From Hydrogenophaga taeniospiralis (GTDB lineage: Bacteria > Pseudomonadota > Gammaproteobacteria > Burkholderiales > Burkholderiaceae_C), in NCBI RefSeq assembly GCF_020510445.1, contig NZ_JAHBAG010000001.1, forward strand, positions 5,122,501-5,186,500: a stretch of DNA of 64,000 nt, given 5' to 3'. Below, piece by piece: positions 25,724 through 35,455 of this stretch (its first letter is position 1; every line of letters begins with the position of its first letter). Below the pieces are notes generated by a model, which saw nothing but the letters and a program-made list of their open reading frames with translations, did no database searches and had not been told where the DNA came from. The translations under genes and the position numbers were made by a program.

Positions 25724-25787
25724 CGGTGCACGCCGCTTGAACTGGGATCATCGGTGCCCCATGCAACGACCCAACGGAGTTCTGCAG

Positions 25788-26336
25788 ATGCACCCCTCGA
25801 TTCTTTTCACCGCGCTGCTGTCGGGACCGCTCCTGGCCGCAGCGCCATCGGCGGCGCTCGCCCAGCACACCGCCCATCAGCCAGCGGCGCCGGAATGGGC
25901 CTCGCCCTACGCAGGCATGCAGGGCCGCGACATCAAGGCGCTCTCGCCCCAGCAGATCGCCGATCTTCGTGAGGGCAAGGGCATGGCCCTTGCCTTGGCG
26001 GGCGAGCTCAATGGCTTTCCAGGCCCATCGCACGTGCTGGAAATGGCGGACGCCCTGGGCCTGAGCGCCGAACAGCGCGCGACGACCCAGCAACTGTTGG
26101 AGCAGATGAAGACACAGGCGCGGACGTTGGGCGCCGAGGTCATCGCCGCCGAAGGCAGACTGGACGCCCTTTTCAAGGAGCGCAGGGTCACGCGGGACAA
26201 CCTGATGACCGCGACCTTGCAAGTGGCCAACGCACAGGGGCGGCTTCGTGCCGCCCACCTCGGGTATCACTTGACGATGGCGGAGCTGCTGACCGCTGGG
26301 CAGATCGAGATCTACAACCAGCTCAGAGGCTATTGA
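25788..26336 (+). CDS. Spy/CpxP-like periplasmic protein
   Basis: This 182-residue protein has a signal peptide (about 1-25, ending ALAQ), a His-containing segment (HTAHQPA), and a helical body resembling LTXXQ/heavy-metal-resistance proteins of the Spy/CpxP/ZraP group: SPQQIADLREGKGMALALAGELNGFPGPSHVLEM is the region of match. Related proteins act as periplasmic chaperones or metal sensors' accessory factors. The start at 25788 has GGAG eight bases upstream; a longer frame from 25737 would put sequence before the signal peptide. It is divergent from a Crp/Fnr gene with a shared operator. A stress-response function is inferred. Confidence 0.72.
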   Translation: MHPSILFTALLSGPLLAAAPSAALAQHTAHQPAAPEWASPYAGMQGRDIKALSPQQIADLREGKGMALALAGELNGFPGPSHVLEMADALGLSAEQRATTQQLLEQMKTQARTLGAEVIAAEGRLDALFKERRVTRDNLMTATLQVANAQGRLRAAHLGYHLTMAELLTAGQIEIYNQLRGY

Positions 26337-29449: not shown

Positions 29450-30331
29450 GTGAACACGGAGATTCAGCGCCTGGGCTATCAACCGCAGGCGCCCTACCAG
29501 CTCGACCTCGAAGTCTTTTCTGTGGCCGACCTCAGACACCGGGGCAAGGAACAGGTGCGCGTGACCCACAGGTACGAGTTCCACACCTTGGTGTGCGTCA
29601 CGCAGGGAAGATGTACCCAGATGGTCGACTTCAAGTCGATCTCTTGTGAGCCGGGGTCGCTGCTGGTGTTGCGGGCAGGACAGGCCCACAACTACGGAGA
29701 AGATGAAGACTGGGACGGCTGGAACCTGTTGTTCCGCCCGGAGTTTGTCTTGCCCGTTTCCACGACGTCTCACGACCTCAAGCTCGCGCTCAATCTGGAG
29801 AGGTTGCCTGAACACATGGTCCTCAGCAGCCAGGAGCTGCGCAAGGCCACGGACCTGTTTCAGCAGATGCGTGAGGACACACTGATCGACGCGCCGCAGG
29901 AAGATGTGCATGCCTTGCTGCGTCATCAGCTCCACACGCTCTTGACGCGGCTGAGCATCCTCCAAGGTCGGCAACAGGTACAAGGGCTTCCGGTCTCCGC
30001 GGCCTTGCAACGCTTCAACCGGTTCCAGCAACTGGTGGACGAGCGCTTCGCGCAATGGCACCAGGTGGCCGACTACGCCAGCCACCTCGGCTATACCGAG
30101 AAGACGCTGGCGCGCGCCGTGGCGGCGTCCATGGGCACGACGGCCAAGGCCTTCATCGCGGCGCGCATCCATCTGGAAGCCAAGCGCCTGCTGGTGCACA
30201 CGGACTTGCCTGTCGCCACCATCGCCGAGAAGCTGGGCTTCGACGAGGCGACCAACTTCAGCAAGTTCTTCCGGCGCGAGGGGGACTGCACCCCGGCAGA
30301 ATTTCGAAGGCAGCAAAGAATGTCTCTTTGA
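29450..30331 (+). CDS. AraC family transcriptional regulator
   Basis: This 293-residue regulator has an N-terminal cupin-type sensor (about 20-150, with SCEPGSLLVLRAGQAHNYGED) and a C-terminal AraC DNA-binding pair of helix-turn-helix units (about 190-290, LGFDEATNFSKFFRREGDCTPAEFRR). The start is GTG at 29450 with AGGA nine bases upstream; the longer frame from 29345 uses TTG and has no ribosome site. It is divergent from the SnoaL-like gene across 214 bp, so that gene is the likely target. The effector is unknown. Confidence 0.85.
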   Translation: MNTEIQRLGYQPQAPYQLDLEVFSVADLRHRGKEQVRVTHRYEFHTLVCVTQGRCTQMVDFKSISCEPGSLLVLRAGQAHNYGEDEDWDGWNLLFRPEFVLPVSTTSHDLKLALNLERLPEHMVLSSQELRKATDLFQQMREDTLIDAPQEDVHALLRHQLHTLLTRLSILQGRQQVQGLPVSAALQRFNRFQQLVDERFAQWHQVADYASHLGYTEKTLARAVAASMGTTAKAFIAARIHLEAKRLLVHTDLPVATIAEKLGFDEATNFSKFFRREGDCTPAEFRRQQRMSL

Positions 30332-30343
30332 CGCCCTGAGCGG

Positions 30344-30372
30344 TGTAACGATTCGGCGACCTGCGGCGACTG
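30344..30372 (+). promoter_or_regulatory. Putative ECF-sigma promoter before KCG lipoprotein
   Basis: TGTAAC at 30344-30349 is followed after 17 bp by CGACTG at 30367-30372. The sigma operon (minus strand, 32607-32579) has TGTAAC-N17-CGACCA with the same first nine bases TGTAACGAT, and the buf operon has TGTAAG-N16-CGACTA. The pattern is close to the Caulobacter sigma-F motif as I remember it (GTAACC-N16-CGAA). Confidence 0.6.
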
Positions 30373-30448
30373 AACCCCACCAAGGCTTGTACACGCCCGT
30401 CTGGCGCTGCACGAGACCCTGGCATGTCCATCACATCAGGAGCTTTCC

Positions 30449-30646
30449 ATGTCCACGTTCTCTTCCCGCCTGTCCATGAGCCTGGCCGCCGCCGTTGTCA
30501 CCACCGCCGCCCTCGGGGGCTGCGCCATGGCCTGCCGCGCCTGCGGTGGCGCCAAATGCGGCCCGGCCAAATCCATGTCCAAATGCGGCGCCGCCGCCAA
30601 GTGCGGTGCCTGCAAGGCCAAGTGCGGCGCCTGCAAAGCGCAATAA
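30449..30646 (+). CDS. Cys-rich KCG-repeat lipoprotein, candidate metallophore
   Basis: This 65-residue protein has a lipoprotein signal with lipobox LGGC (lipidated Cys25), leaving a 41-residue mature part that contains nine Cys. The tripeptide KCG occurs four times (36-38, 45-47, 51-53, 58-60) between Ala, Lys and Gly. The arrangement recalls HvfA/oxazolin precursors, whose GKCG motifs are modified by HvfBC, the BufBC relatives. AGGAG precedes the ATG. An upstream promoter resembles those of the sigma and buf operons at 32.3-34.9 kb. It is followed by a DUF6969-like gene. Metal binding is very likely from composition; post-translational modification is inference. Confidence 0.75.
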   Translation: MSTFSSRLSMSLAAAVVTTAALGGCAMACRACGGAKCGPAKSMSKCGAAAKCGACKAKCGACKAQ

Positions 30647-30714
30647 GCCCCGGGTCTTGCGCCCGATCCCCCGGGGCCCGTCGGCGGTCCCGGGGATTCC
30701 TTCACCGAGGCCCC

Positions 30715-31434
30715 ATGTCCGCATCCCCTGTTTTGCGCCGCCACTGGCGCTCGACCTCGCTGGCCGAACTCAACACCGCCCTCCGCCACGGCCTGTCCAG
30801 CGTGGACGCGTTCGAGCGGGCGACCACCGCGTCGGGCTCGCTGCTGCAGAGCTGGGTGCGGGGCGCCCAGGTGGTGGCGTACGAACACTACCCGCCGGCG
30901 GACGTGATCGATCTGCGCAGCGGCGCCCAGTTCTATTACCACGCCCACCGCAACCACGGCGACGAGCACGGCCACCTGCATGTGTTCTGGCATGCCACCG
31001 CGTCGGGCCGCCGCCGTCGGCCCACGCTGGACCGCACGGTGTGGAAACGCACCGCCCCCACCCACCTGCTGGCCATCGCGCTCGACGCCCAGGGCCTGCC
31101 CGTGAACCTCTTCACCACCAACCAATGGGTCACCGACGGTCATTGGTTCGACGCGGCGCGCACGCTGGCCTGCCTGGACCGCTGCAGCCCCGGCCCGGTG
31201 ACCGGGCATGAACACGCATGCGCCTGGCTGACCCATTTCCTGGCCTTCTACCGGCCATTGATCGCCGACCTGCTGGTGCGGCGCGACGCCCGCCTGCACG
31301 CCCATGGCCCGTTGGCCGACGCGCTGAACAACCGGCGGCTGGACGTGCTCAGCCACCGCCGCATCGACTGGGCCGCCGATCTGGATGCGCTGCAGGCCGA
31401 AGCGAGCCGGCGCGGGCTGCCCGCCCCTCGATGA
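30715..31434 (+). CDS. DUF6969-like protein with HGH-x-H motif
   Basis: This 239-residue cytoplasmic protein lacks a signal peptide. The conserved-looking core is HYPPADVIDLRSGAQFYYHA followed by HRNHGDEHGHLHVFW (about 62-95), a cluster of His that could hold a metal ion. I associate this with DUF6969, a family of unknown function, from memory. It follows the KCG lipoprotein gene by 68 bp on the same strand, with no obvious terminator between, so both are probably one transcript under the sigma-factor-type promoter. It may process or modify the Cys-rich peptide; this is a hypothesis from position only. Confidence 0.7.
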   Translation: MSASPVLRRHWRSTSLAELNTALRHGLSSVDAFERATTASGSLLQSWVRGAQVVAYEHYPPADVIDLRSGAQFYYHAHRNHGDEHGHLHVFWHATASGRRRRPTLDRTVWKRTAPTHLLAIALDAQGLPVNLFTTNQWVTDGHWFDAARTLACLDRCSPGPVTGHEHACAWLTHFLAFYRPLIADLLVRRDARLHAHGPLADALNNRRLDVLSHRRIDWAADLDALQAEASRRGLPAPR

Positions 31435-31459: not shown

Positions 31460-31696
31460 TCAGGGCTCGCCGTCCCCTTGGGGCCGGGCCGGCGCATCGG
31501 CTGCGCCGTCCACCACATCATCCACCCGCTCGGCGTAGGCCCGCATGGCCCGGCGCAGGAAGGGCACCTGCAGGCTGAAGTTCTTGCAGCCGTCGCACAT
31601 CATCAGGTGCAGGTTGAGCGACAGCCGCTCCGCGACCGACAGCTTGCGCTCCTGGGATTCGGACACCAGGCGGGTCACCTCACGACAGTTCAGCAT
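31460..31696 (-). CDS. Zinc-finger (zf-HC2) anti-sigma factor
   Basis: This 78-residue protein is the likely antagonist of the sigma factor encoded upstream. It shows the zf-HC2/ZAS pattern: Cys4 near the N terminus, then HLMMCDGCKNF at about residues 30-40, giving H-x3-C-x2-C. It has no transmembrane helix, so it is a soluble anti-sigma factor that probably senses metal or thiol state through its zinc site. AAGGAGG precedes the ATG at 31696. It overlaps the sigma gene by 17 bp. The same pair type accompanies bufABC operons elsewhere. Confidence 0.88.
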   Translation of the reverse strand: MLNCREVTRLVSESQERKLSVAERLSLNLHLMMCDGCKNFSLQVPFLRRAMRAYAERVDDVVDGAADAPARPQGDGEP

Positions 31697-32288
31697 GTTG
31701 CCCTCCTTGCGCAAACCAGCGGTTCTCCAGGCACTCGCGCAGCCGCAGCCTCGAGCGGTGGAGCATCACATTCAGATTGGTCGAGGTGATGCCCACCTCG
31801 GTGCAGATCTCGCGCGCGTCCAGCCCGATGTACTCGCGCATCATGAACACGCGCGCCTGCTGCCCGGGCAGCCCCTCCAGGCACAGCTCGAACACCTTCC
31901 AGAACTGCTTGTCGTGCAGCGACTCCGTGGGGTTGCCCCAGGTGGCCGGCCGCTCATCGGACTCCCACATGCCACGGGCATCGAACAGCTCGTTCAGGTC
32001 CGCTTCTTCGTCGGCGTCGCCCACCACCTGCTGCGACGACACGTGGCGCTGCTTGTGGCGCAGGATGTCGGTGATCTTGTTCTTGAGGATGGCGAACACC
32101 CAGGTCTTCAGGCTGGCCTTGCCGGCGAACGTGGCCGTGTTCTTGAAGGCGCCGAGCAGGGCTTCCTGCACGGCGTCTTCGGCCAGCTGGGCGTCGCCCA
32201 GCTGCAGCGCCGCGAACTTGAGCATCTTGCCCCGTAGGGCGCTGAGTTCAGCCGGATCGACCCCCGGCGGCAGGCCCGTCGCGCTCAC
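31680..32288 (-). CDS. ECF RNA polymerase sigma factor
   Basis: This 202-residue sigma factor has region 2 (about 20-85, GDAQLAEDAVQEALLGAFKN) and region 4 (about 140-195, DAREICTEVGITSTNLNVML). The start is taken as GTG at 32288, which overlaps the stop of a short upstream frame as GTGA and would explain the missing ribosome site. A longer in-frame start at 32540 has a good GGAGG but adds 84 residues that look unlike sigma factor sequence. It faces the bufA operon and should recognise TGTAA-N16/17-CGAC promoters before its own operon, bufA and the KCG lipoprotein gene. Confidence 0.87.
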   Translation of the reverse strand: MSATGLPPGVDPAELSALRGKMLKFAALQLGDAQLAEDAVQEALLGAFKNTATFAGKASLKTWVFAILKNKITDILRHKQRHVSSQQVVGDADEEADLNELFDARGMWESDERPATWGNPTESLHDKQFWKVFELCLEGLPGQQARVFMMREYIGLDAREICTEVGITSTNLNVMLHRSRLRLRECLENRWFAQGGQHAELS

Positions 32289-32407: not shown

Positions 32408-32774
32408 GGACCACTCCGATGAAACGATGCGATGCGCGGCACCACGCTCCCGTGGCACCGCAGGGGCGGATTCTCGCGCATGCGTCCGCGCGCCTGGCGT
32501 CGGCGTCCAGGCGCGCCCCGCGAAGCAGCAGCCAACCCATGGGGACCTCCGGTGTGAAACGGTGTGTGATGAGCTGCTTGGTCGTTCGGCCACGGCCCAT
32601 CGTTACAGCCCTCCCTTGCGGTCATCGACGAAGGCCTACGCCGGCCTGGGCCTCACCGGCCGCCAGACGGAATTTTCAGGTCCGCTGTAAGAACCGCCGC
32701 ATGGCCGCGACTACACCTTGCAAGCCCATCTTGTTGGCGAGCAACCCACCCCCCAACCGTTTCAGGAGATCACC
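32408..32774. promoter_or_regulatory. Divergent intergenic region, sigma factor / buf operon
   Basis: This 367-bp stretch has no secure gene. It holds two oppositely oriented ECF-type promoters: TGTAAC-N17-CGACCA on the minus strand (32607 down to 32579) towards the sigma gene, and TGTAAG-N16-CGACTA on the plus strand (32686-32713) towards bufA. A frame with a good GGAGG site starts at 32540 on the minus strand and runs into the sigma gene in frame; its sequence looks non-native. The leader of the sigma transcript would therefore be near 280 nt, unusually long. Confidence 0.6.
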
Positions 32775-33095
32775 ATGAACCACACCCTCACCCGCCGCCA
32801 CGCCGCCCGCATCGCTTCGGGCACCGCCCTCGCCATGGCCATGGGCGCCGCCCTGACGCTGGCCGCCAGCCCGGCCGCCGCCCAGAGCGCCGACAAGGAA
32901 AAATGTTTTGGCGTGGCCCTCAAAGGCAAGAACGACTGCGCCGCCGGCCCCGGCACCACCTGCGCCGGCACCTCCAAGGTGGACCACCAGGGCAACGCCT
33001 GGTCGCTGGTGCCCAAGGGCAGCTGCGAGAAGACCGCATCGCCCACGTCGCCCACCGGATTTGGCCAGCTCAAGGCCTTCCAGGAAAAGGCCTGA
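32775..33095 (+). CDS. bufA: Bufferin-type metallophore precursor BufA (DUF2282)
   Basis: This 106-residue precursor has a signal peptide (about 1-37, ending AAAQ) and the DUF2282 core with four Cys at 44, 55, 63 and 84 ([14 protein letters not shown], then C-x20-C). Known bufferins are RiPPs in which Cys residues are converted to copper-binding thiooxazole groups by the BufB-BufC pair and then exported, buffering periplasmic copper. Both partners are encoded immediately downstream. AGGAG precedes the ATG. The promoter resembles the ECF-type site of the adjacent sigma operon. The symbol follows the published bufferin nomenclature. Confidence 0.9.
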
Positions 33096-33132: not shown

Positions 33133-34110
33133 ATGAGCCTTCACCCCGCTTCTGCCTCCGGTCCCGTCGCGCCGGCCGCGCTCAGCCAGCCCCGCGCACC
33201 CGTTCCCGGGCCGCTGCCGCAGCGCGCCGGGCTGGGCCTCAAACCTGAACACTTTGCCCACATCCACGCGCACCGGCCCGACGTGGGTTTCTTTGAAGTG
33301 CATGCGGAAAACTACCTGGTGGCCGGTGGCCCCATGCACCACCACCTCACCCGCATCCGCGAAAGCTACCCGCTGAGCATCCACGGCGTGGGCCTGTCCA
33401 TTGGCGGCGAGGACCCGCTCGACGCCGAACACCTGGACGCGATGGCCCGGCTGGTGAAACGCTACCAGCCCGCGCTGTTTTCCGAACACCTGGCCTGGTC
33501 AAGCCATGGCGGCGTGTTCTTCAACGACCTGCTGCCCCTACCCTACAACCTGCCCACGCTGCGGCGCGTGTGCGACCACATCGACCAGGTGCAGACCCGG
33601 CTGGGCCGCCCCATGCTGCTGGAGAACCCGTCCACCTATGTGGCGTTCGCCAGCTCCACCTGGAGCGAAGGCGACTTCCTGCGCGAGGTGATCCAGCGCA
33701 CCGGCTGCGGCCTGCTGCTGGACGTGAACAACGTCTACGTCTCCAGCATCAACCACGGCCGCGATCCCCAGCGCAGCCTGTGCGAACTGCCCTGCCACGC
33801 CACCGGCGAAATCCACCTCGCGGGTTTTGCCGAGGACGTCGATGGCGCGGGCGACCGCCTGCTGATCGACGCCCACGGCTCGCCGGTGGCCGAGGCGGTC
33901 TGGGCGCTGTACGACACCGCGCTGGCCCTCGCCGGCGCGCAGCCCACGCTGATCGAGCGCGACAACGACCTGCCCGGCTTCGAGGTGCTGCTCCACGAGG
34001 CCCGGCTGGCGGAACAGCACCTTGCGGGTGCAGCTCTGGCGACGCCCCCAGCGCGGCCCTGCCCACGCACGCGCACCCGCTACGCCCCGTCGCTGGAGGC
34101 CTCCCCATGA
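33133..34110 (+). CDS. bufB: BufB, DUF692 multinuclear-iron maturation enzyme
   Basis: This 325-residue enzyme is a DUF692/MbnB-type TIM-barrel protein that, with BufC, oxidises precursor Cys residues using a multinuclear iron centre. Metal-site stretches are [41 protein letters not shown] and [12 protein letters not shown]. About 30 Pro/Ala-rich residues precede the barrel and about 20 follow. The ATG at 33133 follows GGAG. It comes 37 bp after bufA and overlaps bufC as ATGA. The substrate should be BufA and possibly the KCG lipoprotein at 30449. Confidence 0.93.
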
Positions 34111-34877
34111 GCACGCAACACAGCTGGGCCCAGGCCCTGCTCGACCCGGCGCAGGCCGCCCCCAGCGGCCTCGTCACCTGGAACCACAGCGACCCACAGC
34201 GCCGCCTGGCCGTGCACCGCAACAACGTGATGGTGTCGCTGGTGGACGCGCTGGCCCACACCTTCCCGGTCACGCAAGAGCTGGTGGGCGAAACCTTCTT
34301 CCGCGCCATGGCCCAGGTCTTCGTGCGCGCCCACCCGCCCCGCACCCGGGTGCTCAGCCACTACGGCGCCGAGCTGCCCGGGTTCATCGCCCGCTTCGCT
34401 CCCGCGGCCAGCCTGCCCTACCTGGCCGACGTGGCGCAACTCGAAATGCTGCGCCTGCAGGCCCTGCACGCCGCCGACGCCCGCGCCATGGACGCCCAGG
34501 CCATCGCGGCGGTCATGCACGACGCGCGGGCGCTGCCCACGCTGCGCTGGCGGCTGGCCCCCAGCCTGCACCTCCTGCGCTCCGCGCACGCGGCCGTCTC
34601 GCTTTGGGCGGCCCACCAGGAGGGCAGCGGCCTCGCGCTGGAAGACATCGACCCCGCGCAGGCCGAGTCGGCCCTGGTGTTTCGCAGCGGCCTGGACGTG
34701 ATGGTCTGGCAGACCCCGCCCGGCATGGCCGAGCTGGTGGTGGGCCTGCTGCTGGACGACCCCTTTGGCCAGGCCCTGGAGCGGGCCCTGGCCGCTGAGC
34801 CCGACTTCGACCTCACCCAGGCCCTGGCCACCCTGATCCGCCACGAACTGTTGATCGGGGTGGAGCACGCCCACTGA
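34107..34877 (+). CDS. bufC: BufC, DUF2063 partner protein
   Basis: This 256-residue protein has the DUF2063 (HvfC/BufC-type) N-terminal domain (about 1-95, [24 protein letters not shown] and FIARF), followed by a C-terminal extension found in the longer members. Partner proteins of this type guide the peptide precursor into the DUF692 enzyme. Its ATG overlaps the bufB stop as ATGA, as expected for a tight complex. The four-gene order DUF2282, DUF692, DUF2063, DoxX matches the buf operon in other proteobacteria. Confidence 0.92.
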
Positions 34878-34918: not shown

Positions 34919-35455
34919 ATGAACACCCTCACCACCCCCTCCCCCGCCAACGCCGCCACCGGCGGCACCATGGCGCGCCTGAGCGCGCTGCTGCAGAGCG
35001 TGCACCGCCTGATGGGCCATCTGCCCAACACCCTGCTGGCCTTCATCGCGCGCTTCTCCATCGCCGCGGTGTTCTGGAAATCGGGTCAGACCAAGATCGA
35101 AGGCCTGGCCATCGACATCGTCGGCGGCCAGTTCACGCTGGACATGCCCCGGCTGTCGGACAACGCGGTGTTCCTGTTCAAGGAGGAATACAAGCTGCCC
35201 CTGCTGTCGCCCGAACTGGGCGCGACCCTGGCCGCCCTGGGCGAGCACATCCTGCCCATTTTCATCCTGCTCGGCCTGGCCACGCGCCTGTCGGCCCTGG
35301 GCCTGCTGGGCATGACGCTGGTGATCCAGCTCTTCGTCTACCCCGACGCCTACCCCACCCACGGCACCTGGGCCGCCGTGCTGCTCTACCTGATGGCGCA
35401 CGGCCCGGGCAAGCTGTCCATCGACACCTGGATCGCGCGCCGCTGCGCGGCCTGA
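34919..35455 (+). CDS. DoxX family membrane protein of buf operon
   Basis: This 178-residue inner membrane protein has four predicted helices and the DoxX pattern (FIARFSIAAVFWKSGQTKI near residue 45, then LGLATRLSALGLLG). Members often close DUF692 operons (HvfD/BufD position) and may carry electrons or assist maturation; the exact role is not established. It lies 41 bp after bufC on the same strand. No terminator was seen after its stop at 35455, before the TetR operators. Confidence 0.88.
   Translation: MNTLTTPSPANAATGGTMARLSALLQSVHRLMGHLPNTLLAFIARFSIAAVFWKSGQTKIEGLAIDIVGGQFTLDMPRLSDNAVFLFKEEYKLPLLSPELGATLAALGEHILPIFILLGLATRLSALGLLGMTLVIQLFVYPDAYPTHGTWAAVLLYLMAHGPGKLSIDTWIARRCAA

Follow-up and report, generated by a model that had tools for sequence, protein, structure and literature searches.

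Bufferins are copper-binding (PMC12452194), and both they and the captophorins have been explained by a single enzyme family, the MNIO. In Buf1 bufferin systems the DUF2282 precursor is accompanied by the MNIO BufB, the DUF2063 protein BufC and a DoxX protein (PMC12452194), and the gigPABT-rpoQ-rsqA genes of Cupriavidus metallidurans combine such buf genes with divergent sigma and anti-sigma genes (PMC10304878). The gig/rpoQ region is induced by copper, although a dependence on RpoQ was not demonstrated in that work (PMC10304878). The captophorins or Buf_EGKCG-oxazolins of the Lys-Cys group are Sec-exported, contain repeated Lys-Cys-Gly and are in some cases lipidated.

The whole stretch of 64 kb analysed here (the window) carries a buf operon and divergent sigma and anti-sigma genes arranged as in the Buf1 and the C. 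metallidurans systems. Next to them lies a second unit, in which a Cys-rich protein with KCG repeats is encoded directly before a protein of the DUF6969 family. The sigma and anti-sigma genes are located between DUF6969 and bufABC, a placement that the first-pass annotation of this DNA had missed:

ends at 30331: AraC-type regulator, first gene in the order, before the KCG gene
30344..30371, plus strand: ECF-type promoter TGTAAC-N17-CGACT of the KCG-DUF6969 unit, 77 nt 5' of the KCG start codon
30449..30646, plus strand: KCG-repeat Cys protein gene, predicted lipoprotein of 65 aa with lipobox LGGC
30647..30714, plus strand: GC-rich hairpin between KCG and DUF6969, from folding energy and z score
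30715..31434, plus strand: DUF6969 gene (PF22308), 239 aa, Pfam match with invariant His, Glu and Asp
31460..31714, minus strand: zf-HC2 anti-sigma factor (NF052368)
31680..32288, minus strand: ECF sigma factor, TIGR02943 family; start codon uncertain (the frame is open up to 32600, GTG at 32288 taken as start)
32580..32607, minus strand: promoter TGTAAC-N17-CGACC, 5' of the sigma and anti-sigma genes, from pattern search
32686..32712, plus strand: buf operon promoter TGTAAG-N16-CGACT, from pattern search
32775..33095, plus strand: bufA, DUF2282 bufferin precursor of Buf1 type (Pfam)
33133..34110, plus strand: bufB, MNIO bufferin maturase (Pfam and NF050167)
34107..34877, plus strand: bufC, DUF2063 partner protein (HvfC model matched below cut-off)
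34919..35455, plus strand: DoxX protein of the buf operon (Pfam/NCBIfam)

The KCG protein

The gene at 30449 had been described as encoding a lipidated protein with nine Cys in 41 mature residues and four KCG tripeptides, and these counts and coordinates are right: the 41 residues after the LGG|C lipobox hold nine Cys and the tripeptides in the contexts AKCG, SKCG, AKCG and AKCG. A signal peptide followed by LGGC with Cys at +1, recognised by eye, is what a bacterial lipoprotein would carry, and the protein is probably membrane-anchored, its lipidation and location being predictions from the sequence. Two forms of the KCG protein occur among the loci described below, a lipoprotein with LxGC and a soluble form with an AxA-like site; the +1 Cys of the lipobox is present in 13 of the 21 rows of the KCG profile A2, and the other eight have Asn, Gln or Ser there, with a signal part closing in an AxA-like site.

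Searches of the KCG protein against Pfam and NCBIfam returned no family up to an E value of 1. Like the Buf1 bufferins it appears to be a Sec-exported, Cys-containing precursor (PMC12452194); it differs from them by its repeats, its lipobox, its DUF6969 partner and the absence of DUF2282, the domain by which Buf1 bufferins are recognised and which places the product of bufA at 32775 among them. Buf2 bufferins have 6 or 12 Cys; the mature KCG protein has nine. With the Lys-Cys captophorins it shares the repeated Lys-Cys-Gly and the predicted export; in contrast to them it has AKCG and SKCG instead of the EGKCG motif, the BufB of the window is without the reported Lys-Cys determinants, and no MNIO directly follows the precursor in the window. 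Within the literature searched on KCG and NPCAAK repeats and on captophorin, AKCGA was found in PMC13097082 and in its preprint, and none of the other matches listed was relevant by title; KCG precursors may be included in the supplementary tables of PMC12452194 and PMC13097082.

The KCG-DUF6969 pair and the buf regulon

A DUF6969 query against a collection with one genome per species yielded 48 loci, and in 19 of them (L010-L026, L034 and L057) one or two KCG ORFs are located just 5' of DUF6969. By title these 19 come from Burkholderiales, Comamonadaceae, Betaproteobacteria, a genus of these or, once, an uncultured bacterium, and they comprise every one of the 48 that is not alphaproteobacterial or Proteobacteria-only by title. 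Together with the window, L111 and L117-L119 they make up a set of 24 KCG loci from 23 genomes. In 21 of the 24, buf or sigma genes were found on the available stretch, which is up to 20 kb long, with the MNIO more than 10 kb away in L117 and L118; the remaining three are L012, L018 and L119, of which L018 and L119 come from contigs of 3.4 and 10.5 kb. Among 100 relatives the KCG profile matched five, all of them within the seven that have DUF6969, vs none of the 93 without it, where the Fisher value of 2.8e-7 is inflated because the profile contains rows from four of its five matched relatives; after removal of these, one of three stands against 0 of 93 (0.031). In the host genome the profile matches the window copy only. 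The KCG-DUF6969 pair is thus a conserved one, the co-occurrence with DUF6969 and with MNIO/buf genes in other genomes, which had been proposed as a check, was found for both, and the finding is real and broader than the first-pass annotation had stated.

The sequence TGTAACGAT occurs at 30344 (+) and at 32607 (-), 2263 bases apart, so that nine bases and the TGTAAC-N17-CGAC spacing are common to the KCG unit (TGTAACGATTC...CGACT) and to the site 5' of the sigma gene (TGTAACGATG...CGACC); a match to the sigma operon 2.2 kb away in the first nine bases and the spacing had been claimed and is present as described. A third matching promoter, at 32686 (+) before bufA, was absent from that account. 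The pattern TGTAAN-N15-17-CGAC[TC] has exactly these three sites (30344, 32607 and 32686) in the 64 kb, vs 0.15 expected from 40 first-order Markov sequences. KCG, the sigma gene and bufA of the window therefore have a promoter motif in common, as genes of a buf ECF sigma regulon would.

Across the 24 KCG loci, the strict pattern was found 76-93 nt 5' of the first KCG start codon (as taken) in 13, and with L118, whose promoter is a CGACA variant, a buf-type promoter of its own precedes KCG in 14. In nine others (L017, L021, L022, L023, L024, L025, L034, L057 and L111) the KCG gene is located 3' of doxX on the same strand, and L012 is the lone locus with neither arrangement. The bufA gene could be read in 10 of the KCG loci; the motif lies at 53-96 nt before it in five (L011, L014, L015, L020 and L026) and is missing in the other five (L022, L023, L024, L034 and L057, of which L023 and L034 are near-identical), where the motif before KCG is likewise missing. 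This survey of KCG and bufA indicates that KCG has either its own promoter copy or a position behind doxX. The proposal that KCG-DUF6969 belongs to the buf sigma regulon is therefore well supported, by the promoter motif and by the doxX placement across loci, and the unit may be controlled by the neighbouring ECF sigma factor. A second Cys-peptide gene pair beside bufABC, with the same type of promoter and a probably membrane-anchored product, had been suggested as well, and this suggestion holds.

The hairpin at 30647-30714 between KCG and DUF6969 (-37.5 kcal/mol, z -1.84) had been overlooked. One in the same position is found in the three same-genus loci L117-L119 with z scores of -2.9 to -3.8; it is kept within the genus, and its sequence differs in the window. 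Perhaps such a hairpin separates the expression levels of the peptide gene and of DUF6969.

A FAD-dependent oxidoreductase gene was seen in the neighbourhood of L010, L011, L013-L016, L018-L020, L025 and L026, and its transcription could be driven by a TGTAA-N-CGAC site that several of them carry on the strand opposite to KCG.

DUF6969 beside other Cys-repeat proteins

The gene that follows KCG, described earlier as a His-rich DUF6969-like gene, is confirmed as DUF6969 by its match to PF22308 (191.3 bits vs a cut-off of 27, E 1.9e-56, profile positions 10-201 of 201). Among 38 DUF6969 sequences 24 columns are invariant, which include H58, D66, Q72, Y74, H76, H78, E84, H87, H89, H117, R190 and D191. 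In the structural model (pLDDT 88.3, pTM 0.87) most of residues 58-135 form strands with flanking helices. On adjacent strands Q72/Y74/H76/H78 and H87/H89/F91 alternate, so that their side chains would share one face if the strand assignment is right. Since no signal peptide was apparent by eye, DUF6969 is probably cytosolic. Comparison with the PDB gave no clear fold match, and DUF6969 was named nowhere in the literature searched, where no described function for the family was found either.

Elsewhere in the phylum, Alphaproteobacteria included, DUF6969 frequently adjoins secreted proteins with NPCAAK, NPCGP, CAAC, CCAAEG or KKCAAC repeats. From 76 DUF6969 loci with flanks, 45 were retained after dropping DUF6969s at >=80% identity, a set which still includes near kin (L113-L115 are one genus). 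Of the 45, 33 have a Cys-repeat ORF no more than 1.6 kb from DUF6969, 29 by rule and four added by hand (L017, L026 and L117 with KCG, L106 with NPC), whose ORFs the automatic start/repeat rule had missed. By this rule, which was composed after the repeats had been seen, 34 Cys-repeat ORFs were counted in 139 kb near DUF6969 vs 0 in 467 kb at 1.6-8 kb; these distance bins do not cover one rule match of L117, which is 13.7 kb off on the opposite strand from bufA. On plasmids, a DUF6969 relative was present in 167 of 72,556 records, and in four of six plasmid loci read (Burkholderia glumae, Sinorhizobium meliloti, S. medicae and Ciceribacter), which were found separately from the 45, a Cys-repeat ORF is located directly 5'.

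No Cys-repeat ORF was found within 1.6 kb in 12 of the 45 loci (L029, L032, L033, L042, L052, L053, L095, L097, L104, L107, L112 and L116), L104 being cut by a contig end 130 bp before the DUF6969 gene. DUF6969 genes without such a neighbour would be expected if the KCG protein were an unmodified metallothionein-like lipoprotein and DUF6969 an unrelated member of the same regulon, for instance in sensing or housekeeping; the pair is, however, retained across different genomes and repeat types, and we give this explanation little credence.

In two Azospirillum plasmids (L159 and L164) DUF6969 is preceded by a lipid transporter cluster of the MlaE/MlaD type and followed by DUF2336, with no Cys-repeat gene present, and L095 (DUF2336) and L097 (ABC auxiliary lipoprotein) have parts in common with this arrangement.

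The NPC-repeat proteins (NPCAAK, NPCGP) resemble KCG in being secreted and in bearing Cys repeats beside DUF6969, some with a SoxA/TsdA-type cytochrome domain; they differ from it in the repeat itself, in the absence of an MNIO from some of the genomes and in sulfur-related neighbours at several loci. The NPC-type profile A3, which has rows from five genomes of the phylum sample, matched 41 of 397 Pseudomonadota genomes, 15 of the 22 with DUF6969 and 26 of the 375 without; leaving out the row genomes and three Thalassospira-like ones, 7 of 14 with DUF6969 stand against 26 of 375 (3.8e-5). G115 and G175, which are among the 15 genomes with both, do not have their NPC match adjacent to DUF6969. 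The 26 genomes without DUF6969 come in 22 cases from one family (f78), and the six f78 loci that were read show NPC[AS]M-type repeats, five of them in cytochrome-looking proteins with further Cys. The association of NPC repeats with DUF6969 is strong yet one-sided; Cys-repeat proteins can exist without DUF6969, and since 26 of the 41 NPC-profile genomes have no DUF6969 match, DUF6969 is not needed by every one of them.

Further NPC-repeat proteins were seen in DUF6969-free genomes (L137, L139, L142, L145, L149, L151 and L152), several with cytochrome-like motifs and many adjoining another cytochrome-like protein; in L139 and L142 an arsenite-methyltransferase-like gene, recognised by eye, lies beside the NPC-repeat protein. 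In Thalassospira and other Alphaproteobacteria (L027, L028, L030-L033, L035-L038, L040, L041, L043-L051, L053 and L056) DUF6969 is flanked by an FGE-sulfatase-type protein and a cytochrome c, and most of these loci have a divergent NPC-repeat gene at a distance of about 1.3 kb. Buf1 fused to FGE-sulfatase-type and cytochrome c domains has been reported (PMC12452194).

Maturation, metal and sulfur

The first-pass annotation had also suggested that BufBC matures the KCG peptide. The KCG lipoprotein would then be an additional, captophorin-like substrate of BufBC, the Cys of its KCG repeats would be converted to 5-thiooxazoles, and DUF6969 would be an accessory protein. An MNIO is present in 20 of the 23 KCG genomes vs 176 of the 397 genomes of the phylum sample, a comparison that mixes two ways of sampling, and the three KCG genomes without a match (L010, L013 and L017) each show bufC or doxX at a contig end. 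The location of KCG 3' of doxX in nine of the 24 loci points in the same direction. Moreover, AKCGA is one of the motifs common in precursors, and a single case of its modification by FonBC is described (PMC13097082), MNIO modification has been demonstrated for a lipidated EGKCG peptide (PMC12636315), and tandem precursors served by one MNIO have been reported (PMC12452194). In the Lys-Cys MNIOs, however, two Arg are reported to be conserved, as is a Phe adjacent to the catalytic Asp, and the DUF2282 MNIOs show no conservation at these determinant positions (PMC13097082). At the places of the reported RR and DF, the window BufB reads KP and DN, and Phe after the catalytic Asp was found in none of 13 KCG-linked MNIOs, the window included, which have KP and DN, DQ or DH; the FonB positions were placed by motif, without aligning FonB, and the mapping is one that we infer. 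The sole DF among the aligned MNIO rows, together with RR, belongs to the second MNIO of G467 (L093).

DUF6969 together with NPC-type peptides also occurs without any MNIO, which likewise argues against BufBC as the maturation system. DUF6969 was detected in 22 of 397 Pseudomonadota genomes; an MNIO, which an MNIO-dependent RiPP would have wherever the system occurs, is present in 12 of the 21 besides the host and absent from nine. Two genomes without MNIO that consist of a single contig (G270 and G417) encode NPCGP peptides 8-11 bp from the DUF6969 frame. Given the residues of BufB and the DUF6969/Cys-repeat pairs in MNIO-free genomes, maturation of the KCG peptide by BufBC is not supported, and we regard it as unlikely that the KCG protein is a BufBC substrate.

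A genome-wide tie between DUF6969 and MNIO across the phylum was considered and rejected (13 of 22 with the host counted in vs 163 of 375, Fisher 0.19). The gene order of L099 (thioredoxin, CcdA, two NPC precursors and DUF6969, followed by frames matching BufA, BufB, BufC and DoxX) shows that DUF6969 can directly precede an MNIO cluster. The host has a second MNIO-family match (C1:723730-724359), which is partial and divergent, and a rule-based search of 17.5 kb around it gave as Cys-repeat frames merely two long ones of RCR/ACA type.

The single pointer to a copper role of KCG-DUF6969 is the buf regulon. Of the copper or metal peptide system proposed earlier, the placement in this regulon stands, and the metal is called into question by sulfur-related neighbours which recur around DUF6969 generally. 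The Cys repeats might instead carry sulfur, as a periplasmic relay or store of persulfide or thiosulfate, with DUF6969 acting in sulfur transfer. Pfam matches among 122 picked DUF6969 neighbours include Sulf_transp (10, where some transporters are counted as two separate halves), SoxA-TsdA cytochrome c (6), rhodanese (5) and DsbD (5); the 122 were taken from 211 listed frames with most buf-operon genes and repeated lineages excluded, and since the buf genes were mostly excluded, this tally cannot weigh sulfur against copper. Within 7 kb, YeeE-like frames were found in 10 and rhodanese in seven of the 45 deduplicated loci (TsdA-like neighbours in eight of the 45 were partly produced by the repeats themselves and were not used), and the three same-genus KCG loci each have a YeeE-like gene on the opposite strand, 301-364 bp from the DUF6969 frame. 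Several NPC-repeat proteins bear a cytochrome domain. Against a sulfur carrier, the window gave no match to YeeE, rhodanese, Burkholderiales CcdA or FAD oxidoreductase, and the KCG unit has the promoter motif of the operon for bufferins, which bind copper (PMC12452194). We consider a sulfur carrier improbable for the KCG protein.

Of the 24 KCG loci, 17 have CcdA-like frames and 16 have thioredoxin-like frames at a distance of up to 7 kb; the window belongs to neither group. Such neighbours suit periplasmic thiols which need to be kept reduced, and the CcdA-like frames are compatible with copper and sulfur alike.

We tentatively favour an envelope-anchored, thiol-rich peptide that binds Cu(I), with DUF6969 as its cytosolic partner and perhaps its modifying enzyme. 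According to this proposal, which was derived from sequence, the KCG lipoprotein would be exported by Sec and held in a membrane, probably the outer one, by the first Cys of its mature part; the eight further Cys, half of them within [AS]KCG[AP], would be exposed as a thiol-rich sponge for Cu(I) as a soft metal. The neighbouring ECF sigma factor would turn on the KCG unit together with bufABC-doxX. DUF6969 might be a dedicated, metal-dependent partner that would recognise precursors with Cys repeats and, ahead of their export, modify these repeats or make them ready, in a role like that of MNIO and DUF2063 for the bufferins and with a different protein family. Both the metal binding and the action of DUF6969 on the peptide are predicted here. 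A wider proposal, which we offer with considerable doubt, is that DUF6969 represents a new, MNIO-independent class of metal-dependent enzymes modifying Cys in secreted Cys-repeat proteins (KCG, NPCAAK, CAAC, APCAA) before export; the modified peptides would make up an undescribed, Pseudomonadota-wide family that handles metal or sulfur and that in Burkholderiales was drawn into the bufferin regulon.

DUF6969 is a second conserved family found beside Cys-repeat precursors, with or without an MNIO. If it modifies these precursors, many small ORFs would become a defined class of peptides with a testable enzyme; if it does not, a partner would still have been identified for an unannotated, thiol-rich envelope protein that recurs, and the bufferin regulon would be extended.

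Further genes were seen around some of the loci. A gene for 5'-methylthioadenosine phosphorylase is located within 7 kb of DUF6969 in L022, L023, L024, L034, L057, L111 and L160, and in part of these loci, as well as in L106, arsenosugar-type glycosyltransferase genes are found within the same distance; in the plasmid record of B. glumae such glycosyltransferases are those of TIGR04282/TIGR04283. In the window, positions 25737-26336 encode a small secreted-looking protein, which by eye we take to resemble a periplasmic metal sensor of the CpxP/ZraP type.
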